From a virus: a DNA stretch of 64,000 nucleotides. The notes under the pieces are model-generated. The model was given only the letters and a program-made list of their open reading frames with translations, was not told the DNA's origin and searched no databases. The number at the start of each line of letters is the position of its first letter. Within the stretch, counting starts at the first letter, position 1. Both the position numbers and the translations under genes were made by a program. Below are positions 9,917-62,875 of this stretch, piece by piece. Where the stretch lies: IMG/VR virus record IMGVR_UViG_3300010413_001187, positions 1-64,000 of that record; one strand, 5' to 3'.

Positions 9917-9920
9917 CTAG

Positions 9921-9941: not shown

Positions 9942-9971
9942 TATCACTATATAATTTGGAGGGTTTATATA

Positions 9972-39720: not shown

Positions 39721-39962
39721 ATGAGCTAGATCAGTATATAACCTCATATAATAAAAGTAGAAAACGAGAAAAATCTGGTAGGACTATTGGATTGTGGCTT
39801 ACAGGCGGTGAAAGAATAATAGGAGAACTTGTGAGGCATGAGACTAATAAATTATATGTTAAAGACTGGTTAGACCATGGTATAGAGAAAGAAATCCATA
39901 GAGCGACAGTAGCGAGATTCATGATTATAATAGAGGGAGGAATGGATGGAAAAGAAGAGTAG
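39717..39962 (+). CDS. Small possibly Sm/Hfq-like protein (81 aa)
   Basis: ATGA overlap with the upstream resolvase gene. After a basic N terminus (residues 1-22), the region 23-72 follows the strand order of an Sm fold: GRTIGLWLTGGERIIGEL (strands 1-2 with the Gly-Glu turn typical of an Sm1 motif), then NKLYVKDWLD and EIHRATVARFMII as an Sm2-like segment. This resembles Hfq-type proteins, which bind RNA as rings, but the Sm2 Tyr-Lys-His triad of Hfq is not present. The match is weak and structural; a different small beta-barrel is possible. The last 17 bases overlap the first glycosyltransferase gene. Confidence 0.5.
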   Translation: MNELDQYITSYNKSRKREKSGRTIGLWLTGGERIIGELVRHETNKLYVKDWLDHGIEKEIHRATVARFMIIIEGGMDGKEE

Positions 39963-41379
39963 CAATATGATGCGTGGAACATCAATAGTAACACCAGCGG
40001 GAGTACCGATTAGGTCTTTTAATACGCAGGTAGCAGAAGGTACACCGATGGTGGATATGGAATCAACCAAAGAAGATCCAGGAAAGAAAATCAGACTGGT
40101 TTATTATGGTGATGCTCCTAGTGTAGCAACAGGGTTTGGGAAGGTATCTAAAAATATTCTAGGACCTTTATATCAGACTGGCAAATATGAGATATTTTGT
40201 TTTGGAGTAAATTATATGGGAGTCCCGCATCCTTTCCCATTTCAAATTTACCCTATGTTACCTAATCCTCAAGGGGATCCATATGGAAGAGAAAAAGTTA
40301 AACAAATAATTCCACAAATGGAATTTGATTTATTGTTTATGTTACAAGACTCATTTATTATGACTTTCATACCAGATCTGGTAAATGATCTTAAAAGAAG
40401 AGGAAAACCATTCCGCTCAGTAGTCTATTTTCCTATAGATGGTGAGCCGGAAGCAGATTGGATAGAAGCTATGTCACATGCAGATGTTTGTGTGACATAT
40501 ACAGAATTTGGGCGAAAACAATGTATAACTAAATACCCACCCATAGCAGAAAAATTACAAATCATACCTCATGGTATAAGCTTAAAAGAATTTTATCCTA
40601 AACCACCAGAAGAAATAAAAAGGATGAGAGAATTTTATTTTGGCTCACATGCTAACAAGTTTATAGTGATGAATGTAAATAGAAATCAGCAAAGAAAAGA
40701 TATTCCTAGATCAATGGTGGCATTCAGAGAATTTAAAAAACAATGTCCTAATAGCCTATACTATTTACATTGTGCAGAAAAAGATGTTGGTTGGGACCTT
40801 AGGAAGGTGGCACGTAATATTGGATTGGTCGTTGGCGAGGATATTATGTTCCCTAAAAATTTTAATGTAAATACAGGGGTACCTGTTTCAGTCGTTAATG
40901 ATTTATATAATTGTTGCGATGTTGTCATAAGTACTTGCGTTGGCGAGGGCTGGGGTTTAAGCTCAGTTGAAGCTATGGCTACTGGTACCCCAGCAATTTT
41001 TCCGGATAATACATCTTTGACAGAGATTTTTGCTGATGGAAGAGGATTCTTGTGTAGAAGTGGAGACACTCCAAACTTCTGGACTTTTATGACAATGGAT
41101 AATGACGTGGCTAGACCCCTAGCTAATATCAATGATTTGGTTAAATACCTGAAAAGATTATACGAAAAACCTGATATAGGTAGGAAGATGGCACAAAAAT
41201 CTCTTAGATGGGTACAGGATAATCTACAGTGGGAAAAGAATATAGTTCCACGGTTTGATAATATATTGATGCAATTATATAATGATCTAAAAAATCCTAA
41301 ACAGCATGATAGATTGCCTGGAGAAACACCTGTTAAAGAAGCGGCATCAAAGGGATGGAAGCAAGGAGAGATGATATAA
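39946..41379 (+). CDS. Glycosyltransferase, GT4-like (GT-B fold)
   Basis: 477 residues. The ATG follows GGGAGG by five bases. Residues 1-45 are a low-complexity lead; the GT-B N-terminal domain begins with RLVYYGDAPSVATGFGKVS. The C-terminal nucleotide-sugar-binding domain contains CVGEGWGLSSVEAMATGTPAIF, written here in parts: GEGWGLSS then VEAMATG, the E-x7-E donor-binding motif of GT4 enzymes. It should transfer a sugar from a nucleotide donor to an acceptor glycan or protein in the host cytoplasm. It is the first gene of the sugar island and overlaps its neighbours on both sides, so the whole island is probably one operon with the replication genes. Donor and acceptor unknown. Confidence 0.85.
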   Translation: MEKKSSNMMRGTSIVTPAGVPIRSFNTQVAEGTPMVDMESTKEDPGKKIRLVYYGDAPSVATGFGKVSKNILGPLYQTGKYEIFCFGVNYMGVPHPFPFQIYPMLPNPQGDPYGREKVKQIIPQMEFDLLFMLQDSFIMTFIPDLVNDLKRRGKPFRSVVYFPIDGEPEADWIEAMSHADVCVTYTEFGRKQCITKYPPIAEKLQIIPHGISLKEFYPKPPEEIKRMREFYFGSHANKFIVMNVNRNQQRKDIPRSMVAFREFKKQCPNSLYYLHCAEKDVGWDLRKVARNIGLVVGEDIMFPKNFNVNTGVPVSVVNDLYNCCDVVISTCVGEGWGLSSVEAMATGTPAIFPDNTSLTEIFADGRGFLCRSGDTPNFWTFMTMDNDVARPLANINDLVKYLKRLYEKPDIGRKMAQKSLRWVQDNLQWEKNIVPRFDNILMQLYNDLKNPKQHDRLPGETPVKEAASKGWKQGEMI

Positions 41380-42539
41380 TGACAGATGACACAAACAGAA
41401 TAAAAGTAGAATTAAAGGGATTAAAGATTGTCTCATGTGTTTTTGATGGATCTGGGTATGGGCAGGGTGTAAGAAATTGGATAAAAGGACTACATTCTTT
41501 TAATATTCCGATGTATATTCAACCAGTTTCTTTTGAACGCGATAGACCAGATTTAGGTGAAGATTTTGAGTTATTAGATGGGTTAGCCAGAACTCAAAGA
41601 CCATGCGATGTAAATTTTGTTCGTCTAAGCCCAGAAATAGCTATCAATTTCTTGGATCCATCTATGATAAATATCTGTAGTTGTGCTTGGGAGACTACTA
41701 AGTTAGACAAACATTGGGTGGATTGTTGTAATAAATTTGATGCTGTTTTTGTTGAAAGTAAATGGTTGGTACAGGTATTTAAATCATCGGGGGTTCAGGT
41801 TCCTGTATATTGTGTTCCTAATATGGTAGATACGTCATTATTTAAAATAAAAACAGAGCCTAATTTGGATAAGACCTATGTGTTTTATTCTATTCAACAA
41901 TGGATCGAAAGAAAAAATGGGCTAGGGTTATTGAAAGCATATTTCAATGCATTCTCACCAGCTGATGATGTACTATTGGTATTAAAAACATATATGACAC
42001 GGGTAGAAGCTAATATAGAACAAGGACAAAAGATAAAAGAAGATATAGAGCATATAAAAAGAAGTCTTAATATGGACAAAGAATTCCCTCCTATTTATTT
42101 AGTCACAGATAAACTAATGACTGATGATTTGATTCGAATGCATGAAGAATGTGATTGCTATGTACTATTTGATCGTGGTGAGGGGTTTGGTTTGCCATAT
42201 ATGGATGCGGCAGCAGCTGCAAATCCTATTATAAGAACAGATTTTGGTGGCACAGGAGAATTTTTAAACTCTAACAATTCATATGGTACTCGTTGTCAAC
42301 CAACTTTTGTTTGTAATATGGAATGGTCCCCATATTATAGGGGAGATCAGTTATGGGCTGAACCTGATATAGTTCATGGCGCTAGTTTAATGAGACATGT
42401 TTTTGAGAACAGAGAAGAAGCCTTTAAAAAAGGCAGGCAAGCCAGAGAAGATATGGAAACAAAATTTAATAGGGATATAATTACTCAGCGTTTATTGAAT
42501 GCTATATCAGATTTATTGAGATCTAAAAGGGGTGGATAA
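41379..42539 (+). CDS. Glycosyltransferase, GT4-like
   Basis: I start at the ATG that overlaps the previous stop (TATAATGAC), with AAGGAGAG eight bases upstream; an ATG at 41355 is in frame but lacks a good site. The product has 386 residues. The N-terminal half is Rossmann-like with GSGYGQGVRNWIKGL. The donor-binding half has YVLFDRGEGFGLPYMDAAAA, where the second acidic residue of the usual E-x7-E motif is Asp, followed by IIRTDFGGTGEFL. Predicted to be a retaining GT-B sugar transferase working with its neighbours in glycan assembly. Substrate not determinable. Confidence 0.82.
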   Translation: MTDDTNRIKVELKGLKIVSCVFDGSGYGQGVRNWIKGLHSFNIPMYIQPVSFERDRPDLGEDFELLDGLARTQRPCDVNFVRLSPEIAINFLDPSMINICSCAWETTKLDKHWVDCCNKFDAVFVESKWLVQVFKSSGVQVPVYCVPNMVDTSLFKIKTEPNLDKTYVFYSIQQWIERKNGLGLLKAYFNAFSPADDVLLVLKTYMTRVEANIEQGQKIKEDIEHIKRSLNMDKEFPPIYLVTDKLMTDDLIRMHEECDCYVLFDRGEGFGLPYMDAAAAANPIIRTDFGGTGEFLNSNNSYGTRCQPTFVCNMEWSPYYRGDQLWAEPDIVHGASLMRHVFENREEAFKKGRQAREDMETKFNRDIITQRLLNAISDLLRSKRGG

Positions 42540-43441
42540 TGCCTCGCGCTATACCGATACCTGATAGGATTTCTGTAATCATAGCTATACATAATAGAGC
42601 TAATTTATTACGTTATGGTCTAATGGGAATATATGATCAATTTTTAATCAATGATGGCAGAATAGATGTTGAACTAAATATAGCTGATGATGGATCCACA
42701 GATGATCTAGACGATCTTTTAGAACAAGTTAGTGGTGAATATGAATGGGTTGTTAATAAATATACAACAAGTCCATTAGACGAAAGATTTTTTCGCAGAT
42801 TCAATTGTCCAGCGGCTAAATATAATTTTTTAGTAGCCGCGAGTTCTGAACCATTTATATTGAAAATAGATCCAGAATTTGTTTTAATAACGAAGGGTTT
42901 TGTAGAAGATTGTTTGATTCAATTAAACAGTGGAGCCTTCATGCCATATTTTTTGATGCCATACCCATATCATGTTTATGATTTTAAATATTCCTCATTA
43001 GAAGATATTAAAGAAAAATACAAAGATCATGTATATGAAACACACATAAGCCCACAAACTGCACATTACAATAATGTTTATTATGCTTGTATGTTTAGAC
43101 GAAAAGCATTTATACAGCTTGGAGGGATAGAGATGCTGTTTTTAGATGGCATAGGTAGTGAAGATGATCATTTTCTTGATCAATGGAGAAGGCATTATGG
43201 TAATTATGTTGAAACTCTAATGGGACATAAAGGCATTCATCTCTGGCATGGAGAGTGGGGTAAGGGAGTACCACAGGAATTATACGGATGGGTAAATAAG
43301 AACGCTTCCCTAAGAAAAGATCTTGATAAAATTCTTCCCAATAAAGGTGATTTTGCTTCAATAAAATTTCCATTAATACATAAACAAACATGGGAAGACG
43401 GAAAAAAACTAGAAGGTAAATATTGGAGAGTAGATATATAA
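42539..43441 (+). CDS. Glycosyltransferase family 2-like (GT-A fold)
   Basis: 300 residues. A GT2 N terminus is clear: ISVIIAIHNRANLLRYGL then the ADDGSTDDL nucleotide-binding motif (residues 49-57). The metal-binding acidic motif appears as LKIDPEF near residue 106. The C-terminal part has GIGSEDDHFLDQWRR, resembling the ED-x-D acceptor/catalytic region of GT-A enzymes. Inverting sugar transfer is expected. The gene starts at TAATG, sharing a base with the previous stop, with an AGGGG site upstream. Donor and acceptor unknown. Confidence 0.8.
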   Translation: MPRAIPIPDRISVIIAIHNRANLLRYGLMGIYDQFLINDGRIDVELNIADDGSTDDLDDLLEQVSGEYEWVVNKYTTSPLDERFFRRFNCPAAKYNFLVAASSEPFILKIDPEFVLITKGFVEDCLIQLNSGAFMPYFLMPYPYHVYDFKYSSLEDIKEKYKDHVYETHISPQTAHYNNVYYACMFRRKAFIQLGGIEMLFLDGIGSEDDHFLDQWRRHYGNYVETLMGHKGIHLWHGEWGKGVPQELYGWVNKNASLRKDLDKILPNKGDFASIKFPLIHKQTWEDGKKLEGKYWRVDI

Positions 43442-44373
43442 TGAATATAGCAGCACTTGGCCCCAATTATTCGGATTTGGGGCTTAGCACAATAATAGAT
43501 GGATTATTAGATTTAGGACACAAAGTATATGATGTAGGTGGTGGGGGATTGAATTATATGGAACCATTTACACAGGAATCACCAAAAATTGATTTCTATA
43601 TGATGGCAGATACTGATAATTTACGTGGTATGAGAGAACAATCAGATGTACCAAAGGTTATAGCACATTTACATGATAGGTGGACGGACTATATATCAGT
43701 TCCAGACAGCCCAATTAAATATCCTAACATGGCTGAAGCTATATTTGATATAATGTTCTATCGTGATTATGACGGCAGTCTGGGGGATGATGTATATCCG
43801 ATGGAGTTTGGTATTGAACGCAGATTTAATGAGGCATGTCAAAATATGATCCCTTTCCCTAATAGAGAGTTTGATATTTCTTTCTATGGCACTAGAGCGA
43901 CTGCCCAGCGGTGGATGATTCTAGATGATCTAGCTAAAATGTTCAAATGTGATTTTGGTGATCAATTAAAATTTAAGGAACCAGATGATTACTGGTCCAA
44001 ATGGGTTAATGGTAGATATGTACATGCCCCTAAGTATTATGAAGCAATGATGAATTCTAAGATGGTGTTTTGTGGGCTAGGGGCTGGGGCTAGTTGCGGA
44101 AGAACTTATGAAGCTTACGCGGCGGGCTGTGTGCCACTAATACAAAGGTATCCGTCAGAGATAATTCAATTAGTCTCTTTTGAAGACGGACGAAATTGCA
44201 TACTTTGGTCTACTGCAGATGAATTAAAATCAAAAATAAAAGAATGGTTATCAAGTCCTTATGATCTAGTAAAATTAGCAAATTCTTGTTATGTCTTTGG
44301 ACAGGAGAATTTGCTCTCAAGGCATAGAGCCCAATATATGCTTGATAAGATGTATGAAAGAGAAGTTATATGA
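43441..44373 (+). CDS. Glycosyltransferase, CgeB/GT1-like
   Basis: Start set at the ATG right after the previous stop, ten bases from GGAGAG (43425-43430); an in-frame ATG at 43423 would overlap more. 310 residues. The sequence opens MNIAALGPNYSDLGLSTIIDGL and carries FCGLGAGASCGRTYEAYAAGC followed by VPLIQRYPSE. That is the glycine-rich and Glu-containing C-terminal motif of CgeB-like GT-B enzymes, proteins whose family members act on surface or spore glycans. The middle segment EFDISFYGTRATAQRW matches the inter-domain strand of that family. Position among other transferases supports a glycan role. Substrate unknown. Confidence 0.75.
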   Translation: MNIAALGPNYSDLGLSTIIDGLLDLGHKVYDVGGGGLNYMEPFTQESPKIDFYMMADTDNLRGMREQSDVPKVIAHLHDRWTDYISVPDSPIKYPNMAEAIFDIMFYRDYDGSLGDDVYPMEFGIERRFNEACQNMIPFPNREFDISFYGTRATAQRWMILDDLAKMFKCDFGDQLKFKEPDDYWSKWVNGRYVHAPKYYEAMMNSKMVFCGLGAGASCGRTYEAYAAGCVPLIQRYPSEIIQLVSFEDGRNCILWSTADELKSKIKEWLSSPYDLVKLANSCYVFGQENLLSRHRAQYMLDKMYEREVI

Positions 44374-45170
44374 AATTATCTTTAGTTATGGCTTCCAGCA
44401 ACAGTGATTTTGGTAATATTATATTTAGAGACCCTGAGCCAGCTGTTCCCACGCCTGAGCATAAAAGATTGGAATTGTGTATCTATACTTTGCACGAAGC
44501 TTTTAAGGCGGTAGATTATGAAGTTGTGTTTATTGAATGGAATAGACTAGAGCATAGAAAACCATACAGGGAATATGATTTCATGCAGCACCCTAGAATT
44601 CGTGTTATAGAAATTCCTAAATCTTTTAGTGAAAAAGTATTAGGTACAGACTTACAATTCCATGAGATGTGGGCCAAGAATATAGGGATACGAAGAGCTG
44701 TGGGTGAATATATATTAGGTACTAATATAGATGTATTATGGCTGTATCCTTTTAAAGAGAGCTTTTTAGAGAGTTGGCCTATGGTTGCCTGGAGATGGAG
44801 TGTATATCATCCAGTACTAGATCTGGGAAAGGATATGGATTCACTTAGGAACTATTGTTTTAATGACCGTAACAGATTAGATCATGATAGAAATAGTAAT
44901 GGAGATTTTACATTATTACATAAAGAAGGATGGGAGAGATTACAGGGCTATTCCATAACTCTAGAAGGATGGGCAGGGCAGGATATGTGGATGGTAAAAA
45001 GGGCATCTGATTTCTATCAACGTCTTTACGAACTTCCATTTCCTATATTTCACATACGTCATCCAGGAGCGCCACTCGCTTCATCATATGGTGTAACTAA
45101 TATCTCTCCTGATTGGGGAGCACCAAAAGAGGATTTTTCTGAATGGATAAATGGAGAACAAATCAAATGA
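44370..45170 (+). CDS. Glycosyltransferase-like protein, GT-A type
   Basis: 266 residues, starting in an ATGA overlap with the upstream gene. The opening MKLSLVMASSNSDFG resembles GT-A transferases that begin with a VV-x-S-x(N/S) strand. A possible DxD-like motif lies in LGTNIDVLW (about residue 122), and GWAGQDMWMVKRASDF near the C terminus resembles the acceptor-side motif of GalT-like GT2/GT7-type proteins. The family assignment is weaker than for the neighbouring transferases. It probably adds one sugar of the same glycan; substrate unknown. The last 4 bases overlap the nucleotidyltransferase gene. Confidence 0.65.
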   Translation: MKLSLVMASSNSDFGNIIFRDPEPAVPTPEHKRLELCIYTLHEAFKAVDYEVVFIEWNRLEHRKPYREYDFMQHPRIRVIEIPKSFSEKVLGTDLQFHEMWAKNIGIRRAVGEYILGTNIDVLWLYPFKESFLESWPMVAWRWSVYHPVLDLGKDMDSLRNYCFNDRNRLDHDRNSNGDFTLLHKEGWERLQGYSITLEGWAGQDMWMVKRASDFYQRLYELPFPIFHIRHPGAPLASSYGVTNISPDWGAPKEDFSEWINGEQIK

Positions 45171-45739
45171 TAATGGATCTATTGGATATAACATCAGTAG
45201 TAGCTGCACATGAGATGTGTAAGAATGCAGCAAGATATAGACCAGAGATGGGAAGGAAAGGTATTGTTGGTTTACTATCTGGAGCATGGGATTTATTTCA
45301 TTATAGTCATCTGAGAGCTATACAACAGGCTAGACGGCTATGTGATTTTCTTTTAATAGGGGTTGGCACAGACCGGTTAGTTGGAGAGAATAAAGGTCTT
45401 TTAAGGCCTATAATAGTACAGGAACAGAGATTAGCTATTGTAGCTAGTCTGAAAGAAGTAGACATAGCTTTCCTGATGGACAGTGAGTTTGATTATGGTG
45501 AGGTGGCTCTATCACTAGTAGTACCTTATAATGGCGTAATGTTTAAATCCAAAGAATGGTTAGATCAATTAGAAGCTATTCCAGGGTTTGATGAGACTGC
45601 TGGATATGATCCTGGATATAATAAAACTGTCGAAGTAAACCGAATAGGTAATGTTATAATCTTAGATCGAGGGCCTATTAGTACTTCTAGTATAATCTCT
45701 GGGATATGTAAAAGATTAGAGGAATATAAATGCATATAG
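45167..45739 (+). CDS. Cytidylyltransferase-like nucleotidyltransferase (HIGH superfamily)
   Basis: Start at the ATGA overlap (45167), nine bases after GGAGA; an ATG at 45143 is in frame but inside the previous gene. 190 residues. The core is GLLSGAWDLFHYSHLRAI, where HYSH stands for the H-x-G-H nucleotide-binding motif with Gly replaced by Ser, then LIGVGTDRLVGENKG, a RPIIVQEQR segment and KEVDIAFLMD. This matches RfaE2/HldE- and TagD-type enzymes that join CTP or ATP to a phosphorylated sugar or polyol. It could activate a sugar for the glycosyltransferases upstream. The precise substrate is not readable, and the Gly-to-Ser change is unusual. Confidence 0.75.
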   Translation: MIMDLLDITSVVAAHEMCKNAARYRPEMGRKGIVGLLSGAWDLFHYSHLRAIQQARRLCDFLLIGVGTDRLVGENKGLLRPIIVQEQRLAIVASLKEVDIAFLMDSEFDYGEVALSLVVPYNGVMFKSKEWLDQLEAIPGFDETAGYDPGYNKTVEVNRIGNVIILDRGPISTSSIISGICKRLEEYKCI

Positions 45740-46401
45740 TTACCGAACATCCCATAGCTCTAGATTCTAATGACCATCTGAAACCATGGGGAGCCATTCA
45801 GGATTATGGAGACCCTACTAATTTATGTAATTATATGATTACTGAATGGCCAGATAAAAAAACTTTATTAGATTTAGGCACAGCAAACGGTTCAGTAGTT
45901 GCTGGTGCAACATTTATGGGCTATGATGCTTATGGTATAGAAGGATCAGATGCTGCTCGAAAAGGACAAGGAGAGTCTGAGCCATGGGGGATTTATTATA
46001 ATACTAGACTATTCAATGCCGATTTACGCTATCCATTTTATCTTTATAAGACTATGCAGGGATATTTCAATAGAAGATGTGATATACATTATGAAACATA
46101 TGATCTTCTATGCACATTTTCGTTAATTACAGCTTGGGATGTCATGGAACATCTAACTGAGGACACGATTGATGTCACCATGAATAATATAGCTAGGCAT
46201 AGCCATAGAGGTACATTCTTCTTAGCTACTATCCAGTTTGATAATGTTGGTAATAAACTATATCACCATCTACTCAAGCATAGAGAGTGGTGGTTGGCTA
46301 AATTTGCAGAATTTGGATTTAAAAATAAAGGATTTTGTGGTGCTCATGAATTAATGCGTGGGGTTCCACAGCCAAATAGATTTTGGTTTGAAAAAGAATA
46401 A
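45730..46401 (+). CDS. SAM-dependent methyltransferase, class I
   Basis: 223 residues, overlapping the upstream gene by 10 bases, with GAGG seven bases before the ATG. Motif I LLDLGTANGS and a following acidic EGSD form the SAM-binding Rossmann core; AWDVMEHL is the motif IV region. The N-terminal signature HPIALDSNDHLKPWG is shared with the next gene (KPIALESEDHLHPAG), marking the two as paralogues. Probably O- or N-methylates a sugar of the glycan, given the neighbours; the acceptor is unknown. No membrane segment is seen. Confidence 0.8.
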   Translation: MHIVTEHPIALDSNDHLKPWGAIQDYGDPTNLCNYMITEWPDKKTLLDLGTANGSVVAGATFMGYDAYGIEGSDAARKGQGESEPWGIYYNTRLFNADLRYPFYLYKTMQGYFNRRCDIHYETYDLLCTFSLITAWDVMEHLTEDTIDVTMNNIARHSHRGTFFLATIQFDNVGNKLYHHLLKHREWWLAKFAEFGFKNKGFCGAHELMRGVPQPNRFWFEKE

Positions 46402-46422
46402 TTTAATTTTTAGGGACTATTT

Positions 46423-47040
46423 ATGAGAATAATTACTAATAAACCTATTGCTTTAGAGTCGGAGGACCATTTGCATCCTGCTGGTGCTCTTGATGACAGG
46501 TGGGTAAATGGCAAAGAGTTTTGGTCTATGTTTAAAGAGGAATTCGGAGGTGGATTTAAAATATTAGACCTTGGTACAGGTGTTGGTCAGATAGTTATTA
46601 GTGGGATTGAAGCTGGGTATGATATATATGGAATTGATGGAACGGATGCCTGTTTAGCTCTGAATACATGGAAGAAGTATCATGGTACTCGACTCTTTTT
46701 AGCAGATGTCACTGAGCCATTTACTATTGTAGACTGGAGTGCAGAGATTATAAAATTCGATTTTATAACTCTCTTTGATTTTCTGGAGCATATTCCAGAA
46801 GAAAAATTAGGTGTATTAATAACTAATATTAAGAAACATTTAAAGAAAGGTGGAACTCTCTTAGGAACTGTAGCACATGATCCAACCCAACGCCAGCATG
46901 TAACTAATTATATTCGTGCTTGGTGGTTGGAGCTATTTGCTAAATATGGATTTGTTGACAAAGGGCACCACGAGATGCTCACAATAGTAAGAAAGGATTC
47001 TATACCAAAGAAACATTTTTGGATGCAATGGGAGGCATAA
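46423..47040 (+). CDS. SAM-dependent methyltransferase, class I (paralogue of upstream gene)
   Basis: 205 residues; 21 bases separate it from its paralogue, one of the larger gaps in the island. Motif I is ILDLGTGVGQ, the adenosine-binding acid is in GIDGTDA, and TLFDFLEHIPEEK with HLKKGGTLLGTV gives the class I motif order. The shared opening pattern P-I-A-L-x-S-x-D-H-L-x-P with the preceding gene, together with the W-W-L-x2-F-A-x-(F/Y)-G-F end region in both, shows a tandem duplication followed by divergence. Likely a second methylation position or sugar. Substrate unknown. Confidence 0.8.
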   Translation: MRIITNKPIALESEDHLHPAGALDDRWVNGKEFWSMFKEEFGGGFKILDLGTGVGQIVISGIEAGYDIYGIDGTDACLALNTWKKYHGTRLFLADVTEPFTIVDWSAEIIKFDFITLFDFLEHIPEEKLGVLITNIKKHLKKGGTLLGTVAHDPTQRQHVTNYIRAWWLELFAKYGFVDKGHHEMLTIVRKDSIPKKHFWMQWEA

Positions 47041-52487: not shown

Positions 52488-52496
52488 GGAGTTATT

Positions 52497-53516: not shown

Positions 53517-53521
53517 GTAAT

Positions 53522-54220: not shown

Positions 54221-54241
54221 TAAATGTGTAGGAGACAAGAC

Positions 54242-54985: not shown

Positions 54986-54989
54986 TACT

Positions 54990-55100
54990 ATGCAGAGATT
55001 AAATCAACCTATTGTATACACTAGACGATTCTATTCTTACAGTCCTTTTTACCATAGTGAATATTTTTTAAATGTACGATATGAAGAGCTACTTTATTAG
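54990..55100 (+). CDS. Possible 36-residue ORF
   Basis: ATG at 54990, four bases after the methyltransferase stop, reads 36 residues (MQRLNQPIVYTRRFYSYSPF and on) to TAG at 55098. The product is Tyr/Arg-rich and has no recognisable motif. The ribosome binding site is poor (only GGT upstream). In its favour: it fills the only long gap in this part of a very dense operon and its stop lies just before the APS kinase start. It may equally be a non-coding leader. Confidence 0.3.
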   Translation: MQRLNQPIVYTRRFYSYSPFYHSEYFLNVRYEELLY

Positions 55101-55113
55101 AGGTATGTTCATA

Positions 55114-55647
55114 ATGACAGGTAAGCATGAACAAGTTAAATTATTTGGTAATGTTATTTGGTTATATGGTATGTCTGGTGCCGGTAAGACTACACTAGGC
55201 ACTAGACTCGCAAAAGATTTGAACTATATGTTCATTGATAGTGATTATTTTAGACAGGTGCGATGGATCAAACCTGATTTTACTCCTAAAGGTAGACGTA
55301 AATATCAGAATGAACTAAGAAATGAGGTTGCTAGACTACAATTATCTTTTAGTCCAGGTATAGTAGTAGCTTCAATAACTCCATATACAGATATGAGAGA
55401 AAAGAACAGAAGAGTCTTTGGTAAAGAATATCTTGAAGTACTTCTGAAGTGTGATATTGATACTCTTATTCAAAGAGATCCAAAAGGCTTATATAAGCGG
55501 GCAATGGAAGGAGATTTATTTAATTTCACTGGGCTTACGGACTCATTTGAGGAGGGTGAGCCCCACTTAATAGTGTACACAAATGATGGAGAAGATCTAT
55601 CATATAAAATTTTATTAGAAAATGTGAGGAAATGGTTAAATGTGTAG
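55114..55647 (+). CDS. cysC: Adenylylsulfate (APS) kinase
   Basis: Converts adenosine 5'-phosphosulfate plus ATP to PAPS, the sulfate donor of the sulfotransferases beside it. From the ATG at 55114 (AGAGG ten bases upstream) it has 177 residues with the P-loop GMSGAGKTT at 19-27, DSDYFRQ for the DGD-x2-R motif, a VVASITPYTDMR segment matching the ISPY-x3-R motif, and the diagnostic RDPKGLYKRAMEGDLFNFTG. In-frame ATGs at 55072, 55081 and 55105 would add up to 14 residues. No ATP sulfurylase is in the window, so APS presumably comes from the host. This is one of the firmest calls in the island. Confidence 0.9.
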   Translation: MTGKHEQVKLFGNVIWLYGMSGAGKTTLGTRLAKDLNYMFIDSDYFRQVRWIKPDFTPKGRRKYQNELRNEVARLQLSFSPGIVVASITPYTDMREKNRRVFGKEYLEVLLKCDIDTLIQRDPKGLYKRAMEGDLFNFTGLTDSFEEGEPHLIVYTNDGEDLSYKILLENVRKWLNV

Positions 55648-55804
55648 TAGATGTAATTTTAATCCAAATGTTAGAGAAGATTTACCGCCTGTGCATATGC
55701 CTAATGGGGATCTAATATATAAGATATTAAAAGAAAAATCAAAACAAATTATGGACGAATGGGATAGACAAGATATGATTGAAAGAGAGAAGTATGTCGA
55801 TTAA
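55640..55804 (+). CDS. Small CxxC protein (54 aa)
   Basis: A 54-residue frame starting at ATG 55640, eight bases after a GAGGAA site and overlapping the APS kinase stop by 8 bases, ending at TAA 55804. It opens MCSRCNFNPNVREDLPPVHM, with Cys2 and Cys5 forming one C-x2-C and a potential His19, then a charged helix. It overlaps the next sulfotransferase start by 11 bases. The good site and snug fit in a dense operon make it credible. Function unknown; a half zinc-site that dimerises is possible. Confidence 0.55.
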   Translation: MCSRCNFNPNVREDLPPVHMPNGDLIYKILKEKSKQIMDEWDRQDMIEREKYVD

Positions 55805-56531
55805 AGTAATACATTGGAGTGAAGCATCATTAAATGATGTATTACTCTTTCATCATTTACCTAAAACTGCTGGTACTGCTGTGTCATCAGCACTTGAAGG
55901 GCTCTATGGCGCTGAGTATTATAGATGGTTTCATGGGCCAGCTGGGGCTTTAAAGACATTGGTGGATGGACACTCATTAAAAGCTTTGGGCGGGCATTTT
56001 CATTTGAGCCATCCACTTGCTGCGCAGATTGATGCACAAGTAATTATGATTACTCTTATCAGAGACCCAGTTGATCGAGTCATCTCTAATTTTTATTATT
56101 TACGTGCTAATGAAAAACATCATCTTTACGAATTAGCTAATGCATATTCATTGGAGGAAGCACTAAATAAAGGTCTTGCTAAAAAATTACAGATAGATAA
56201 TGAAATAGTCAGAATGCTATCTACAGCGGATCCAAAGAATTCCTTAGGCACAGCTTTTAGAAGTGCAAAAGAAACTATTAATTCGTATACCTTTTTTGGT
56301 CTACAGGAACAGACAAGAATGCTTCAATTGTTAATAAATAGAGTTTTCAACATTGAGCATTTTAAAATACCTGTAATGACAACTTATACAGCTAGGCCCA
56401 AGAAAGAAGAAGTAGATCCCGGCTTGATAGAGTTGATAAAGAAATATAATCAGTATGATGTAGAACTATATGAATATGCAAAAGAAATATATAATAGAAA
56501 ATTGGAAAAAGAATGGAGATTGAAACGTTAA
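55794..56531 (+). CDS. Sulfotransferase, HS2ST-like (Sulfotransfer_2), copy 1
   Basis: Start at ATG 55794 after a GAGAG-rich stretch; a TTG at 55779 is in frame. 245 residues. The PAPS 5'-loop FHHLPKTAGTAVSSAL (PKTAGT at 23-28) and the 3'-phosphate motif ITLIRDPVDRVISNFYYL (Arg90, Ser98) are hallmarks of the family that includes heparan sulfate 2-O-sulfotransferase. Between them lie WFHGPAGAL and GGHFHLSHP, conserved with the next gene. Two genes downstream of APS kinase, it probably uses the PAPS made there. It likely sulfates a sugar hydroxyl; acceptor unknown. Confidence 0.85.
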   Translation: MSIKVIHWSEASLNDVLLFHHLPKTAGTAVSSALEGLYGAEYYRWFHGPAGALKTLVDGHSLKALGGHFHLSHPLAAQIDAQVIMITLIRDPVDRVISNFYYLRANEKHHLYELANAYSLEEALNKGLAKKLQIDNEIVRMLSTADPKNSLGTAFRSAKETINSYTFFGLQEQTRMLQLLINRVFNIEHFKIPVMTTYTARPKKEEVDPGLIELIKKYNQYDVELYEYAKEIYNRKLEKEWRLKR

Positions 56532-57250
56532 CAAATATTATTCCATGGGATAAAGCATCATCAGATGATTTTCTTTTATTCCATCATATACCGAAGACTG
56601 CAGGAACAGCTTTATCGGCTGCCTTGCGCCGGTACTATGGGCCTGAGAACTATCATTGGTTTCACGGTCCTAGTGGTGCTCTGGATGCTATTTATGAGGG
56701 CACTGAATTACGAGCTGTGGGGGGTCATTTCGATTTAAATCATCGTTTATTAGATATGATACAAACTCCAATGATTTTAATCACAATCTTCAGAGAACCC
56801 GTCGAAAGAGTAATTTCATCATATTACTATTTAAAGAATAATGGTAAACATAATTTACATGAGTTAGCTATGAGATTCAGTTTAGAAGATATTTTTGATA
56901 AAAAATGGGCTCGGCGGCTACAAATGGAAAACCAAATGGTCCGCACGGTGTCTAATATAGAGTATAGACGATGGGCTGATCCTGTGTCGGGGGCTAAAGA
57001 AAATATTTTGAAATATACCTTTTTTGGATTACAAGATGATTTAGACACTTTCGAACAGCTATTCAATTCTAAATTTAATACCACAGACCTACAGATACTA
57101 AGATCCAAAAAGAAATATGAAACCCCTAAACCAGATGAACTCGATGCAAGAACTTTAGAATTAATTAAAATGAATAATAAAGATGATATATGTTTGTATG
57201 AATATATACAAGAAGTCTATTTACAGAAAATAAAAGAAGACTGGATATGA
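56513..57250 (+). CDS. Sulfotransferase, HS2ST-like (Sulfotransfer_2), copy 2
   Basis: 245 residues, overlapping copy 1 by 19 bases. PKTAGT at 27-32, ITIFREPVERVISSYYYL (Arg94, Ser102), WFHGPSGAL and VGGHFDLNH align with copy 1 throughout, so it arose by tandem duplication. Both PAPS-binding loops are intact, which suggests activity on a different position or acceptor and not decay. The C terminus of each ends in a charged helix with a Y-x-Y-x2-E pattern. Weak GGAAAAAG upstream of the ATG; translation is probably coupled to copy 1. Confidence 0.85.
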   Translation: MEIETLTNIIPWDKASSDDFLLFHHIPKTAGTALSAALRRYYGPENYHWFHGPSGALDAIYEGTELRAVGGHFDLNHRLLDMIQTPMILITIFREPVERVISSYYYLKNNGKHNLHELAMRFSLEDIFDKKWARRLQMENQMVRTVSNIEYRRWADPVSGAKENILKYTFFGLQDDLDTFEQLFNSKFNTTDLQILRSKKKYETPKPDELDARTLELIKMNNKDDICLYEYIQEVYLQKIKEDWI

Positions 57251-57291
57251 AGGTAAAAGTAAGAGATAGAGGAATTTATGGAGACAGAATA

Positions 57292-57690
57292 ATGAAAAGA
57301 AGAAATTTTTTAGTCGGAGCTTTGATAGGGCTTTCATCAATATTTACAGTAAAGAAATCATCAGCATATAATACTCCAGGTTTATGTTTGGAAAACATTG
57401 TTGGCGAGATAAATAAATATGGATACAAAGTCGATAGTGAACATAGAGACCAGAAACTAGAAGAAATTAGTTTTTGTCAAACACATAAAGAATTTACTGA
57501 AGATATTGTAAGGGTTTGGAAAGTTACTAATATTCATAATAGAGAACCTATGTTTTATGTTCAAAAATTTATTTTTGGCACTAACATGGATGGAAATTTA
57601 TATAATTTGAATACTCAATGTTATCTGACTGATAATTGGAAGAAAGAACTATATACTTTAATCAATATGCAGCCAGAAAGGTTATGTTAA
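57292..57690 (+). CDS. Exported protein with Tat-like signal peptide (132 aa)
   Basis: I start at the ATG at 57292, seven bases after GGAGA; an in-frame ATG at 57247 would bury the signal. The first residues MKRRNFLVGALIGLSS carry a twin-arginine motif (R-R-x-F-L) followed by a hydrophobic core and an S-S-A cleavage-like site near residue 25, the layout of a Tat signal peptide. The mature part (about 107 residues) has three Cys and no family I recognise. Export by the host Tat pathway would place it in the periplasm or outside. Tat substrates fold before export, often around a cofactor. Function unknown; a surface-glycan role is only suggested by location. Confidence 0.6.
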   Translation: MKRRNFLVGALIGLSSIFTVKKSSAYNTPGLCLENIVGEINKYGYKVDSEHRDQKLEEISFCQTHKEFTEDIVRVWKVTNIHNREPMFYVQKFIFGTNMDGNLYNLNTQCYLTDNWKKELYTLINMQPERLC

Positions 57691-58211
57691 TGCCGACTGC
57701 TGAAGCAAGACAAAGTTTAGCAAAATATTGTCAAGGTAATGGAATAGATGTTGGATATGGTGGTATTGCTATAACTCCCAATACAATAAATCTTGATTTG
57801 CCGGAAAAGAAACAACATGGTGGGAATGATCCACAACATTTATTTGGCAATGGCAAAGAATTATATTGGTTCAAGGATGAAGTTCTTGATTATGTTTATT
57901 CATCCCATCTATTAGAGAATTTCTATATACCAGAGATGCATGAGTTTTTAAAGGAATGGTTTCGAGTATTAAAACCAGGAGGCTTAATCATATTATATCT
58001 ACCTGATCAGAAAGTCTATGAAGAACATTGTCGTAAGGCAGGGGCGAATCATAATCCCGCTCACAAGTACAAAGAACTAAGCTTAGAATGGTTTATAGAA
58101 AGTGTAATAAAACCATTGAATAAAGAAATAGAAGTATATAAATTAGACATTATATATAAGAATCCTAACGCTGGTAAATTTTCGTTCGAGTTAGTCTTAA
58201 GAAAAGGTTAA
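57690..58211 (+). CDS. SAM-dependent methyltransferase (Methyltransf_11-like)
   Basis: The ATG shares a base with the previous stop and lies eight bases after AAAGG; an upstream in-frame ATG at 57684 is closer to the site and one at 57636 lies inside the previous gene. 174 residues. GNGIDVGYGG is motif I, NLDL the ribose acid region, VYSSHLLENF the motif IV region, and EWFRVLKPGGLIILYLPD the classic post-II and III region. Shorter than most family members. Target unknown, probably a small molecule or sugar given the setting. Confidence 0.75.
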   Translation: MPTAEARQSLAKYCQGNGIDVGYGGIAITPNTINLDLPEKKQHGGNDPQHLFGNGKELYWFKDEVLDYVYSSHLLENFYIPEMHEFLKEWFRVLKPGGLIILYLPDQKVYEEHCRKAGANHNPAHKYKELSLEWFIESVIKPLNKEIEVYKLDIIYKNPNAGKFSFELVLRKG

Positions 58212-58216
58212 TCACG

Positions 58217-58399: not shown

Positions 58400-58410
58400 A
58401 GGGGATAGAA

Positions 58411-58710: not shown

Positions 58711-58719
58711 GAGCGGCAA

Positions 58720-59778
58720 ATGAAAATATTGATTACTGGTGGGGCTGGGTATATAGGCTCAGTATTAGTTAAGAAATTATTAGAGTGGAAACCTATATCT
58801 CTTGATGCTTTGGTTAATACTGGTAATGGTATTAGATGGTCTAGCCCTATAGAAAAAATAACAGTAGTAGATAATCTTATTCGTAAACAAAATGTCTTGG
58901 GCGAGTTCGTAACTGATTCAAGATTCGAATTCATCAAAACAAATATAGATTCCTTTTTCACTTATCAAGGTGATATGCACCCGTTCCATAAAGGCGATGA
59001 GATAGACGTTACTGAGTTAGCTTGTTTTTATGATGTCGTCATTCCTCTAGCTGGAATTGTAGGTGCTCCTAGATGTCAAGAAGAGCAAGAACTCAGTTGG
59101 AAATATAATAGGATATGGATTTTTGAGTTAATAAAAGAATTGGAAGAACATGCACCTGTGCCTCCTAAAGTTATATTCCCATGTACTAATTCAGGTTATG
59201 GATCAAGACCAGACGGCGCAATGATTACTGAAGAGGACCCATTAAGACCTGTTTCTGCTTATGGTAGATCAAAGGTAGCAGCAGAAAAAGATATATTAAG
59301 CTATGGGGGAATTAGTTTGAGGCTGGCCACAGTTATGGGCTGGTCTCCATGTATGCGTCTGGATCTATTAGTTAATGACTTTGTATGGCAAGCTGTTAAA
59401 CGAAGAAACATAGTTCTCTTTGAAAAACATTTCAAGAGAAATTATATTCATGTAGAAGATGTCGCGCAAGCTTTTATTCTAGCTATAGAAAAATATTATC
59501 AGATGGGTGGACAATCTTTCAATGTTGGTCTATCTAGTGCGAACTTATCTAAAGAAGAGTTGTCTAAAAAGATAGCTGAACATATAGAGTTGCATATAAT
59601 TGATGCCCCTCTGATGGAGGATCCAGATAAGAGGGATTACATAGTTAGTAATGAGAAGATAGAAGCATTGGGGTTTAAACCTAGATGGGATATTGATTCA
59701 ACTATTGAACAACTTATTAAATTTTATCAAACTGTTGGATTAGATTCAGCAAATATATTTTATGAGAATTGGAAGTAA
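58720..59778 (+). CDS. NAD(P)-dependent epimerase/dehydratase (extended SDR)
   Basis: 352 residues; AGGAG precedes the ATG. ILITGGAGYIGSVLV is the cofactor motif; LAGIVGAPRCQEE, PCTNSGYGS and SAYGRSK (Y-x3-K) the active-site region; and RNYIHVEDVAQAFILA the family end segment. A large insertion after the first strand (about residues 25-75) distinguishes it from the two paired epimerases upstream. It probably acts on a nucleotide sugar as epimerase or reductase. It lacks the TDEVYG dehydratase motif. Neighbours are small Cys proteins and a GDP-fucose-synthase-like gene. Confidence 0.82.
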   Translation: MKILITGGAGYIGSVLVKKLLEWKPISLDALVNTGNGIRWSSPIEKITVVDNLIRKQNVLGEFVTDSRFEFIKTNIDSFFTYQGDMHPFHKGDEIDVTELACFYDVVIPLAGIVGAPRCQEEQELSWKYNRIWIFELIKELEEHAPVPPKVIFPCTNSGYGSRPDGAMITEEDPLRPVSAYGRSKVAAEKDILSYGGISLRLATVMGWSPCMRLDLLVNDFVWQAVKRRNIVLFEKHFKRNYIHVEDVAQAFILAIEKYYQMGGQSFNVGLSSANLSKEELSKKIAEHIELHIIDAPLMEDPDKRDYIVSNEKIEALGFKPRWDIDSTIEQLIKFYQTVGLDSANIFYENWK

Positions 59779-59781
59779 ATT

Positions 59782-60030: not shown

Positions 60031-60220
60031 ATCTCTACTTTGTAAAACATGTATATTAGGTGAAGAGATTAGAAGTAATACTGTATTATGCAATCTAAAT
60101 CCAGAACAAAGAGAGGTAAAAGCCACAGGGTTTTGTGGACAAGGCGTGTGGGTAATTGATGGCGAAATAATGGATTTCAAAGAGGCATGGAGTCATATTA
60201 ACAAGGAGGATAAATGTTAG
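59951..60220 (+). CDS. Small four-Cys protein (89 aa)
   Basis: The ATG at 59951 lies nine bases after AGAGG (59937-59941), better placed than the ATG at 59942, though later GTG/TTG starts (60020, 60011) cannot be excluded. From 59951 it is 89 residues with Cys31-x2-Cys34, Cys47 and Cys62 (TGFCGQGVWV), a zinc-finger-like set that falls wholly after the overlap with the upstream gene. That suggests the shorter forms may be the true product. Function unknown. Confidence 0.5.
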   Translation: MTTFHDGRKVRLKPLTENTSLRIVENKSLLCKTCILGEEIRSNTVLCNLNPEQREVKATGFCGQGVWVIDGEIMDFKEAWSHINKEDKC

Positions 60221-61206
60221 CGAGGTACAAGAGAGGAATTCCCTATAATAAAAGAATATTGGTAACCGGTGATCGGGGCTTTTTAGCACATCATTTAATT
60301 CCAGAATTAGAAAATAAATACCCAAGAGCAGATATAGTAAAACCACAGGGACGAAAATTTTTTGATCTAACCAGACAAGAACAAGTTGAAGCTATGTTTA
60401 AGTCTATGACAGAAGAAGGATATGTATCAGAAATATGGAATCTTGCTGCACTCTCTGGTGGTATAGAAGATAATAGAAATAGACCAGCCCAATATTATTA
60501 TCAAAATCTTATGATCACAACAAATATATTAGAAACAGCAACTGTTTTTAAGGCTCGTAGATTAGTTCAATTCATGGGCGGATGCTCCTATCCTAACAAG
60601 GAGGGTGAAGATTTATTTACCGAAGAAATGATGTGGGAGGGCCGTCCAGTTGGTACCTCAGCTGGCTATAGTATGGCAAAGAAAATGTCAATTATAGCCG
60701 CTGAGGTTTATGAACAACAATTCGGAATAAATACAACAGTATTAATTCCTACAAATATGATTGGTGAGTGGGATAATTTTCATCCTGTAGAATCTCATGT
60801 CGTTCCTGGATTAATTGCTAGATTTATAGAGTCAAGGGAAGAGGGATATAAAACTGTTTCTGTATGGGGCAGTGGCAAGCCTGTCAGGGATTTTATTTAT
60901 GCTGGGGATGTGGCTAAAATTGCAGTGGAAATAATTCCTAAATATAAAAAGGTTGGTCCTATTAATATATCTACAGGTAAGGGAACATCTATCGCTGAAT
61001 TAGCTGAGATTATTATGAAAGCTGTAGGATTTGATGGTACAATACATTTTGATAGAAGTAAACCAGACGGTCAAATGCATAAAGTTCTTGATAATACTAA
61101 GATGATGAATGCCATTGAAGAATTTGCATTTACCTCTGTAGAAGAGGCTGTGGGGAGGACAGTAGAATGGTGCGAGAGGCGGATAATGACCAAGAAGCAA
61201 CCCTAG
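60214..61206 (+). CDS. GDP-L-fucose synthase-like epimerase/reductase
   Basis: 330 residues with AAGGAGG before the ATG. RILVTGDRGFLAHHL is the NADP-binding motif. GGCSYPNKEGEDLFTEE and GYSMAKKMSIIAAE carry the Cys and Y-x3-K of the GDP-fucose synthetase group. VWGSGKPVRDFIYAGDVA and FDRSKPDGQMHKVLDNTKM match the conserved WGsGkP-R-(E/D)F and SKPDG-x3-K motifs of Fcl/WcaG. Such enzymes turn GDP-4-keto-6-deoxymannose into GDP-L-fucose. The matching GDP-mannose 4,6-dehydratase is not in the window, so the substrate would come from the host or another phage gene, or the enzyme may use another keto sugar. Confidence 0.82.
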   Translation: MLARYKRGIPYNKRILVTGDRGFLAHHLIPELENKYPRADIVKPQGRKFFDLTRQEQVEAMFKSMTEEGYVSEIWNLAALSGGIEDNRNRPAQYYYQNLMITTNILETATVFKARRLVQFMGGCSYPNKEGEDLFTEEMMWEGRPVGTSAGYSMAKKMSIIAAEVYEQQFGINTTVLIPTNMIGEWDNFHPVESHVVPGLIARFIESREEGYKTVSVWGSGKPVRDFIYAGDVAKIAVEIIPKYKKVGPINISTGKGTSIAELAEIIMKAVGFDGTIHFDRSKPDGQMHKVLDNTKMMNAIEEFAFTSVEEAVGRTVEWCERRIMTKKQP

Positions 61207-61448
61207 ACTATATATTAGATAGATTCAAAACTAATAAACACATGAGAATAAGTTTAACACAGGACATTACTGGTCTTGCCAACGATGTACATCCAGAATA
61301 TTTATTAGCTTTAATTAGAAGTGCTTGGAAGTCCTGGGAAGAAAAGAAAAAATCTAACATAGCAAAAACTATTGCTGGGCCAATGTATTATGACTCTTTT
61401 TTAGAGATTATGGAGAATGATGTTAGCGACGAAGTTAAAGGCGCATAA
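61167..61448 (+). CDS. Hypothetical protein (93 aa)
   Basis: 93 residues, overlapping the fucose-synthase-like gene by 40 bases, but with a strong GGGGAGG (61152-61158) eight bases before the ATG, which supports it. The sequence is mostly helical, with ITGLANDVHPEYLLALIRSAWKSW in the middle in parts (ITGLANDVHPEYLL, IRSAWKSW). No motif recognised. It overlaps the next gene by 32 bases, continuing the coupled pattern. Confidence 0.5.
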   Translation: MVREADNDQEATLDYILDRFKTNKHMRISLTQDITGLANDVHPEYLLALIRSAWKSWEEKKKSNIAKTIAGPMYYDSFLEIMENDVSDEVKGA

Positions 61449-61914
61449 AGAATATATATCTTATTTTTTCAGACATAAATACTGGGTATATATAGAAGGA
61501 AAAAAGTTAGGGCTCCCAAGATGGAGATTATTAGTTCATGACTTATCTAAACTAAGGCCTTCCGAATGGTTTGGTTATGTTAATTGGAAGTATAGTCAAA
61601 TAATTAATGAAGGTGGGGGAACTAATAAGAACAATAGAGGCTATGGAAGAAGCTGGCACCTTCATTATCTTAGGAATCCACATCATTATCAGCATTGGTT
61701 GTATATTGATGATCAAACCGGAGAGTGTTATCCTGTGGAGATGCCAGATATTTATAGAAGAGAGATGCTTGCAGACTGGTCATCTGCTGGAATAGTGAGG
61801 TTTGGCAAACCAGGTTTATGGGAATATTATCAAGCTAATGAAGAGATTCTGAGGAAACTCATTCACCCACAGACCTTGGGATGGTTAGAAAAGGAGATTA
61901 AACATGGTGGATAG
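61417..61914 (+). CDS. DUF5662-like protein
   Basis: 165 residues. The layout matches the DUF5662 group found in phages and bacteria: an N-terminal helix with HKEY and HKYWVY, LVHDLSKLRPSEW (a His-Asp-x-Ser-Lys motif), then WHLHYLRNPHHYQHW with several His and the downstream MADW-like MLADWSSAG. The paired His/Asp residues resemble an HD-type metal site, which suggests phosphohydrolase activity, but the family has no established function. It overlaps both neighbours. Confidence is moderate because the family was recognised by motif memory only. Confidence 0.6.
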   Translation: MMLATKLKAHKEYISYFFRHKYWVYIEGKKLGLPRWRLLVHDLSKLRPSEWFGYVNWKYSQIINEGGGTNKNNRGYGRSWHLHYLRNPHHYQHWLYIDDQTGECYPVEMPDIYRREMLADWSSAGIVRFGKPGLWEYYQANEEILRKLIHPQTLGWLEKEIKHGG

Positions 61915-62875
61915 AATAAGTTTAGAAAGAGGACTAAATCATCATGCTATAATAGGAAGTAATGGATTTATAGGTAGTGCACTAAAACGCTATGCTGATA
62001 CACATTATTCTGAACAATTCTTAAGTAAATGGCACGGAATAACTAGAGAAAATTATATGGGGTATAGAGGTAATCGTTTTAATAGAGTTATTTGGGCCGC
62101 TGGTAACCCGTCTAAGGAATATTGTCAAGAAAATCCTGAAAGATGTATGTATGATAATGCTTATATGGTACTGGAGGCTCTGAAAGATTTTCCTGCATAT
62201 CAGTTTATATATATATCTAGCCAAGCGGTATACACTGGTGAACAAAGAGAAGACTCCTTCATTGATATAGCTAAACTAGATACATATGGCTTATCCAAAT
62301 ATGTAGGTGAACTAATGGTGAAAGATTTTTGTGGATCGCATCAGATTGATTATATTATTATTAGGCCAAACGGTTTTACTGGGCCTGGATTAAAGAAAAA
62401 TATAGTTCATGAAATAGCTACAGGATATACCTTAAAGAAGACATGGGACAGTCGAGCACAATATATACATGTAGATACTTTTGCAGATATAGTATTATTT
62501 TTGACATTTAATCGTTATTTAGATTATAAAATACTTAACGTTGCTCCGCCTGATGTTTTAACCCCCGTAGATATTGCTCGTATACTTAACAAAGATCTAA
62601 CACAGATTAAACAACCTTCTAACGGTAATGTGAGGCACACAGATGCCGTTATGGATGTAACAAAAATGTTTAATCTTTTAAACAAGTATAAAAGATCAAT
62701 CCCAACTAGTGAAAGAGCAGTGAGGTTATGGAATGAACCAGCTGAAGTATCAATGTCTGTTTTGCGGGGTCCAATGGGGGAATCCTGCCGCGGGAGAGGA
62801 TCAGATATCGCATGGAATTTGTCCCGTGTGCGTTCGAATAAACCACACGGAATTAATACGGAAACACCAGATTAA
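61904..62875 (+). CDS. NAD-dependent epimerase/reductase family protein (SDR)
   Basis: 323 residues. AIIGSNGFIGSALKRY is the cofactor motif, VIWAAGNPSKEY the strand-4 region, FIYISSQAVYTG and DTYGLSK the Ser and Y-x3-K active site, and IIIRPNGFTGPGL and YIHVDTFADIVLFL the later family segments. Shorter insert regions make it closest to RmlD/WcaG-type reductases. The last 45 or so residues (after SERAVRLWNEP) look unlike the family and are encoded where another, well-conserved small gene runs in a different frame, so the tail may be an overprinted extension or the result of a frameshift. Confidence 0.75.
   Translation: MVDRISLERGLNHHAIIGSNGFIGSALKRYADTHYSEQFLSKWHGITRENYMGYRGNRFNRVIWAAGNPSKEYCQENPERCMYDNAYMVLEALKDFPAYQFIYISSQAVYTGEQREDSFIDIAKLDTYGLSKYVGELMVKDFCGSHQIDYIIIRPNGFTGPGLKKNIVHEIATGYTLKKTWDSRAQYIHVDTFADIVLFLTFNRYLDYKILNVAPPDVLTPVDIARILNKDLTQIKQPSNGNVRHTDAVMDVTKMFNLLNKYKRSIPTSERAVRLWNEPAEVSMSVLRGPMGESCRGRGSDIAWNLSRVRSNKPHGINTETPD

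Follow-up and report, generated by a model that had tools for sequence, protein, structure and literature searches.

Gene content of the island

The IMG/VR virus record IMGVR_UViG_3300010413_001187 is a genome fragment of 66,130 bases, and its bases 1-64000, hereafter the window, contain an island of sugar and sulfation genes at 39946-62875. The island consists of 30 open reading frames (ORFs), all on the + strand, and 26 of the 29 junctions between them are overlaps or gaps of no more than 21 bases, the biggest gap being 181 (ORF starts were taken as the first possible ones). Judged against Pfam curated cut-offs, it encodes glycosyltransferases (GTs), five SDRs (starting at 48709, 52497, 58720, 60214 and 61904), a DegT aminotransferase, a GNAT acetyltransferase, a HIGH-type nucleotidyltransferase, five methyltransferases (MTs), an APS kinase and three sulfotransferases (STs). 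Since multiple genes for GTs and for nucleotide-sugar enzymes lie together in a phage genome, it has the make-up of a phage-borne cluster of the lipopolysaccharide (LPS) type. The glycosyltransferase and sulfation genes are given below, with percentage identities to two related IMG/VR contigs of 211 kb (G019) and 545 kb (G001).

39946..41379, + strand: GT1, group-1/GT4-type glycosyltransferase (PF00534 38.7 bits; phrog_2170 155 bits; 63-69% in G019/G001), apparently lineage core
41355..42539, + strand: GT2, group-1-type glycosyltransferase (PF00534 26.3 bits, cut-off 26.4; 59-60% in G019/G001), apparently lineage core
42539..43441, + strand: GT3, family-2-type glycosyltransferase (PF00535 23.0 bits, cut-off 23.3; 38% in G019 and G001)
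43423..44373, + strand: GT4, Glyco_trans_1_2-type glycosyltransferase (PF13524 34.1 bits; 41-42% in G019/G001)
44370..45170, + strand: GT5, conserved protein, candidate glycosyltransferase only (43% ortholog in G001; no family support)
47801..49710, + strand: GT17a and SDR1, copy 1 of a duplicated gene pair (PF04724 24.3 bits, cut-off 26; PF01370 130 bits)
50858..51601, + strand: ST1, Sulfotransfer_1-type sulfotransferase (PF00685 61.6 bits, cut-off 22; 30% ortholog in G019 beside the APS kinase)
51573..53516, + strand: GT17b and SDR2, copy 2 of the same gene pair (PF04724 28.1 bits; PF01370 128.8 bits)
55072..55647, + strand: APS kinase, predicted PAPS synthesis (PF01583 80.1 bits, cut-off 21.1; PDB 2yvu, APS kinase, 2.7e-23; 45-48% in G019/G001)
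55779..57250, + strand: ST2 and ST3 (starts 55779 and 56513), paralogous Sulfotransfer_2-type sulfotransferases (PF03567 44.7 and 36.4 bits, cut-off 22)

A preliminary description of this DNA had reported an unbroken one-strand block of sugar and sulfation genes at these coordinates. Its content is confirmed by Pfam and its junctions are mostly tight, but a closed island ending at 62875 was rejected, as RNase HII, a papain-like peptidase, an HddC-like nucleotidyltransferase and an HddA-like kinase follow in that order, and sugar genes continue until the record breaks off at 66,130 bases. The same description had counted seven GTs. Six have family matches, three of them above the Pfam cut-off (39946, 43423 and 51573) and three slightly below it (41355, 42539 and 47801), whereas GT5 (44370-45170) has no meaningful match in Pfam, PHROG or PDB sequences, and therefore counts as a candidate beside these six. 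Its structure prediction failed (mean pLDDT 31), precluding fold comparison, and its comparison with the GT3 profile gave a probability of 0.7%. The heptose genes beyond the window, the gene order common to other huge phages, and the internal duplications were all absent from that first account.

These duplications comprise four pairs of paralogs, MT1/MT2 (33% identity), GT17a/b (43%), SDR1/SDR2 (45%) and ST2/ST3 (46%), with the GT17-SDR unit having been duplicated as two genes together (47801-49710 and 51573-53516). Hence the island appears to have grown by gene duplication.

The island belongs to a huge tailed phage

Relatives were found by two routes. GT1, aligned with three isolate homologs as a query, picked out two contigs whose GT1 is 66% and 69% identical, both of which share the window's order of structural block end, clamp, RecA, helicase, primase, SSB, DnaJ, RuvC and GT1-GT2. 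The APS kinase of the window alone found no relative, and two aligned APS kinases found the 211-kb contig. In a piecewise comparison, the entire window, including its proteins of 2466, 3396 and 2166 residues, proved colinear with a stretch of each contig, at about 150-210 kb in G019 and about 251-165 kb in G001. As genes for a terminase large subunit (99 bits) and, next after it, a portal protein are present in G001, a bacterial chromosome is ruled out, and the location of the island in a phage, as first described, is borne out. Judging from this shared order, the source of the window is a huge tailed phage, three of whose backbone proteins have no relative among 50,697 phage records. The giant proteins upstream of the island are conserved in both contigs, and only that at 2516-9916 has a PHROG match ("tail protein"). 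The best conserved protein of the window, at 9972-11603 (71-75% in G019/G001), has no PHROG or Pfam match and is a candidate main structural protein; its predicted structure failed (mean pLDDT 29), allowing no fold comparison.

The island is conserved as well. Among 27 of its genes that were tested, 19 have matches in the G019 stretches and 23 in those of G001, corresponding to about 17 and 18 distinct loci respectively, as some window paralogs (MT1/MT2, GT17a/b, SDR1-3, ST2/ST3) share one locus. Fifteen genes are present in both relatives, with their order largely kept: GT1-GT4, the HIGH-type enzyme, the MT1/MT2-type and MT4-type methyltransferases, the APS kinase, the ST2/ST3-type sulfotransferase, SDR3-SDR5, DUF5662, HddC and HddA. 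The longest colinear run of shared genes was 18 of 20 in G019 and 15 of 23 in G001, and neither was reached in any of 100,000 shuffles of the gene lists, which were hand-compiled from the piecewise comparison, with RNase HII and small genes of unknown function among their entries; hence the shared order is not attributable to chance. Median identity to the relatives was 39-41% for the island and 43-47% for the replication genes, with GT1, GT2, SDR4, DUF5662 and HddA at 49-69%. The DegT and GNAT genes had no match in the compared stretches of either contig. In G001, many putative homing endonucleases interrupt the glycan island between 155 and 208 kb.

GT1 lies directly after the replication genes in all relatives. 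A search with GT2 returned ten loci, four with GT2 at 56-60% (G019, G001, L207 and L206) and six at 27-38%. Within the close group, G019 and G001 have the sulfation set, L207 (a contig of 259,732 bases) has GT1-GT5, MT4, MT3 and GT17, with a sulfotransferase gene beginning at its visible edge, representing the first half of the island, and L206 stops just past GT2. Two distant relatives (L010 and L011) keep GT1-GT2, followed by other sugar-type genes, as judged by eye from their ORFs. Hence GT1 and GT2 look like core genes of the lineage, and the stretch behind them like a lasting site of glycan genes. The GC content at third codon positions (GC3) is 0.255 in the island and 0.230 in the backbone; as this difference is small and the orthologs are colinear, recent import of the island is not supported. 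The best reading is that it is an old, inherited phage module, passed on largely in order and intact-looking, though roughly one residue in two differs between the phages' proteins. This retention of order and intactness across divergent phages argues that the glycan module is in use by the phage.

Sulfation genes

The island encodes the kinase and the transferases of a predicted PAPS-dependent sulfation pathway: the APS kinase and the sulfotransferases score above their family cut-offs and retain the motifs expected of them. The P-loop (GxSGxGKTTLG), RDPKGLY and FTG blocks of the APS kinase are kept in all four sequences compared. ST2 and ST3 retain KTAGT and R(D/E)PVxRVIS, while ST1 has PRSGT, YRNPLD and GEIGDWK, motifs that we take, with those of the kinase, to be PAPS-binding; the first sulfotransferase motif deviates in some of the relatives' copies. 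ST2 matches heparan sulfate 6-O-sulfotransferase (2.9e-6), and ST1 weakly matches cytosolic sulfotransferases (0.001). ST2 and ST3 came out as sisters (support 0.985) in a small tree built from six sulfotransferases; this suggests that they were duplicated after the split from the relatives in the tree.

An APS kinase and a sulfotransferase are present in all three phages in which the whole island is visible (the window, G019 and G001), and in G019 four genes in a row encode ST1, the APS kinase, an ST2/ST3-type (Sulfotransfer_2) enzyme and MT5. No relative was found with ST2 alone or the ST2/ST3 alignment among viral contigs, nor with the ST2/ST3 alignment among genome contigs. Against the 50,697 phage records, tblastn gave no match for GT17b, ST2 or ST1, and five weak matches for the APS kinase.

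Sulfation genes were also seen on an unrelated contig, L110 (IMGVR_UViG_3300044683_000179). At 3680-10507, genes read as tail-fibre-like from their NPHxVTxxQVG repeats are immediately followed by those for a TPR-sulfotransferase (Sulfotransfer_3, 126 bits) and an APS kinase (209 bits). This is possibly a second, independent case of phage sulfation. Separately, the Synechococcus phage S-EIVl (L007, 719-2185) has a GT1 relative and an annotated sulfate adenylyltransferase.

Sugar-nucleotide, heptose and modifying enzymes

The remaining enzymes of the island, and the heptose genes beyond it, are as follows.

45143..45739, + strand: HIGH-type nucleotidyltransferase, nearest RfaE domain II (PF01467 37 bits, cut-off 21; TIGR02199 59.7 bits, below its cut-off)
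45730..47040, + strand: MT1 and MT2 (starts 45730 and 46423), paralogous methyltransferases (PF13489 31.4 and 53.2 bits)
47019..47801, + strand: MT3 methyltransferase (PF13578 33.9 bits; 50% in G001)
49710..50861, + strand: DegT-type sugar aminotransferase, nearest PseC (PF01041 362 bits; TIGR03588 319 bits, cut-off 423.5)
53522..54220, + strand: GNAT acetyltransferase (PF00583 44.1 bits)
54224..54985, + strand: MT4 methyltransferase (PF13578 55.1 bits; 31-34% in G019/G001)
57636..58211, + strand: MT5 methyltransferase (PF08241 38.5 bits; 43% in G019)
58720..59778, + strand: SDR3 nucleotide-sugar enzyme (PF01370 83.6 bits; 39-55% in G019/G001)
60214..61206, + strand: SDR4, GDP-L-fucose-synthase-like (NF047922 224 bits, cut-off 500; 49-52% in G019/G001)
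61417..62875, + strand: DUF5662 protein and SDR5 (SDR5 start 61904) (PF18907 100 bits; PF01370 57 bits)
record 64675-65472: HddC-like nucleotidyltransferase (nearest models HddC and a mannose-1-phosphate guanylyltransferase)
record 65586-66128: HddA-like GHMP kinase, cut by the record end

For the GDP-D-glycero-D-manno-heptose pathway, GmhA, HddA and HddC were covered: HddA-like and HddC-like genes are present in the record, G019 and G001, and a GmhA-like gene in G001, where the three lie close to one another, with all scores below the equivalog cut-offs. The DUF5662 protein is among the best conserved of the island (55-59%), and its gene is adjacent to that of SDR5 in the window, G019 and G001. 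Two further genes were noted in passing. A 147-residue protein at 57247-57690 has a twin-arginine-like start (KRRNFL) and a hydrophobic stretch, and from these features is possibly exported. The papain-like cysteine protease, from window position 63615 to record position 64379 (PF00112 72.5 bits), has no match in G001 or G019.

Export genes and the likely acceptor

The absence of a flippase, polymerase and polyprenyl-phosphate transferase, as first described for the window, holds on wider inspection. In a crude hydropathy scan (segments of 19 residues with hydropathy over 1.6), hydrophobic segments number at most one per ORF in the record (55 ORFs) and at most three in G019 (232 ORFs), and a single ORF among 864 of G001 exceeds three, with five, and resembles an ABC-importer permease; the scan omitted G001 200,501-221,239 and G019 188,986-195,000. 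Genes for a substrate-binding protein, a permease and an ATPase at about 530-535 kb of G001 look by eye like an ABC importer of the nitrate/sulfonate/taurine type. The flippase family PF01943 was found in none of seven records, G001 and G019 included, with controls positive in 13 of 14 genomes. The initiating polyprenyl-phosphate transferase PF02397 was likewise found in none of the seven (controls positive in 9 of 14 genomes), other initiating families not having been searched. Hence the flippase and initiating transferase that characterise a Wzx/Wzy-type locus were found in neither the record nor G019 nor G001. Although the record is a fragment, these two relatives put the earlier prediction to a fair test.

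Since the searches turned up no gene for a flippase, a polymerase or a lipid-carrier transferase, the acceptor of the glycan is most likely soluble, with the phage's tail or capsid proteins as the best candidates. Three observations favour virion proteins. Firstly, relatives of GT1 lie among head genes in phage S-CBS4, and near the terminase in TJE1. Secondly, the APS kinase and TPR-sulfotransferase of L110 follow tail-fibre-like genes. Thirdly, virion glycosylation is reported for mycobacteriophages in the available part of PMC12619734.

Proposed function and alternatives

We put the probability at about one half that the island belongs to a module for glycan synthesis and sulfation common to a lineage of huge tailed phages, building a sulfated glycan on a soluble acceptor, likely virion proteins. 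In the pathway that we infer from the gene families, with its enzyme activities and order of steps, phage enzymes would make activated sugars through a D-glycero-D-manno-heptose-type branch (HddA and HddC, with GmhA too in G001) and SDR steps, with DegT and GNAT providing an amino sugar in the window's phage. GT1, GT2 and further GTs would assemble an oligosaccharide in the cytoplasm, to be modified by the methyltransferases and the acetyltransferase. The APS kinase would convert host-made APS to PAPS, from which the two kinds of sulfotransferase would add sulfate. The glycan would then be transferred to the soluble acceptor, best candidates being the phage's own tail or capsid proteins, giving the particle a negatively charged, sulfated coat. 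The more specific proposition, that huge phages of this lineage use their own enzymes to decorate their virion proteins with an oligosaccharide that contains heptose and is methylated and sulfated, giving phage cysC a role outside sulfur assimilation, is put forward tentatively.

Several observations weigh against this reading. The neighbours of the island are replication genes and not head genes, a placement that would suit DNA modification too, and in S-EIVl the GT1 relative comes after the primase; the virion acceptor itself is a deduction. The ATP sulfurylase family PF01747 was found in none of seven records (the CysD/CysN type was not searched), and host supply of APS is therefore assumed. 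The sulfotransferases are the least conserved of the shared genes (23-30% identity). PF01583 and PF03567 each occur in one of 18 GT1-sharing records, in both cases G001 (the set predates G019); carrying GT1 therefore does not generally go with sulfation, and the six GT2 loci at 27-38% lack the sulfation set in the stretches examined. Finally, the sugar enzymes score below equivalog cut-offs, HddC and HddA included, and hence the identity of the sugar is a suggestion.

The gene set resembles an O-antigen locus, and similar cyanophage clusters have been labelled LPS genes (PMC3037559, available text). The module might accordingly remodel the surface of the infected host (LPS, capsule or a surface glycoprotein) through the host's lipid carrier and export machinery, blocking rival phages or shielding the cell. 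However, the record, G019 and G001 offer no candidate flippase, initiating transferase or polymerase, and a lytic huge phage would presumably gain little from such a change late in infection, making this explanation unlikely.

The position of GT1 directly behind the replication genes could instead indicate that phage DNA is the target, its bases being hypermodified by the GTs and sulfotransferases for protection from restriction; base glycosylation and sulfation systems exist in phages (Iyer 2013, as cited in the available part of PMC10829341). Yet the thymidylate synthase/hydroxymethylase family PF00303 is absent from G001 and G019, while being found in another record (G006) and in 9 of 14 controls, and a base needs few sugars, whereas this module has no fewer than six GTs along with five SDRs and heptose genes. 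PF12851 and PF18723 gave no match, but as the controls were silent too they are uninformative. We regard DNA modification as somewhat less probable again than remodelling of the host surface.

Alternatively, the APS kinase and sugar enzymes could be auxiliary metabolic genes shifting host pools, with cysC serving assimilatory sulfate reduction and its neighbours incidental, which is how 62 cysC genes of freshwater phages are interpreted in the available text of PMC10914622. Three sulfotransferases lie near the APS kinase, however, with one on either side of it in G019, and the ATP sulfurylase result above (CysH was not searched either) also counts against this role, which is very improbable. 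That the phage carries the island without any function for it, as passing cargo or "stuffer" DNA, a possibility raised for cyanophage LPS clusters (PMC3037559, available text) and in line with several genes differing among relatives, is hardly credible, given core genes that are intact, in order and diverged nearly as much as the replication genes, and GC3 near that of the backbone.

Comparison with known systems

LPS-type clusters and cysC are already known from phages, and so are sulfotransferase genes, as exemplified by phrog_3347, named galactose-3-O-sulfotransferase. What is new is the conserved combination of a phage glycan module with an APS kinase and sulfotransferases, of which the open literature searched contained no report. 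The nearest parallels are the LPS clusters of the cyanophages P-SSM2, S-SSM7 and S-SM2, also long runs of sugar genes in large phages with some genes common to several of them, and of unknown function according to the available text of PMC3037559. "Sulfotransferase" appears nowhere in that text, whereas the module described here has a fixed site behind GT1-GT2, an APS kinase and sulfotransferases. The freshwater phages with cysC and cysH likewise encode an APS kinase, those with cysC having larger genomes (PMC10914622). There the gene is interpreted as serving sulfur assimilation, and the available text does not contain "sulfotransferase"; here a phage APS kinase lies amid sulfotransferases and is tied to these neighbours instead.

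Mycobacteriophages, with glycans reported on capsid and tail tube (PMC12619734, available part), resemble the proposal made here in combining phage-encoded GTs with a soluble virion acceptor. Their glycans are reported on virions, whereas the present system is known from its genes alone, and has many more enzymes plus sulfation genes. The Moraphages, likewise large, have several GTs among their core genes and in some cases DnaJ; with genomes of up to 307 kb, they are set apart by their description in the same paper, the available text of which does not contain "sulfotransfer", "heptose" or "epimerase".

If the proposed function is correct, a sulfated coat could affect adsorption, sticking to surfaces or particles, and recognition by hosts. 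Chloroviruses and mimivirus, which infect eukaryotic hosts, encode their own sugar synthesis and glycosylate their capsids. The system described here differs in belonging to a tailed phage and in its predicted sulfation step, and would hence represent a bacterial-virus counterpart of these self-glycosylating giant viruses.

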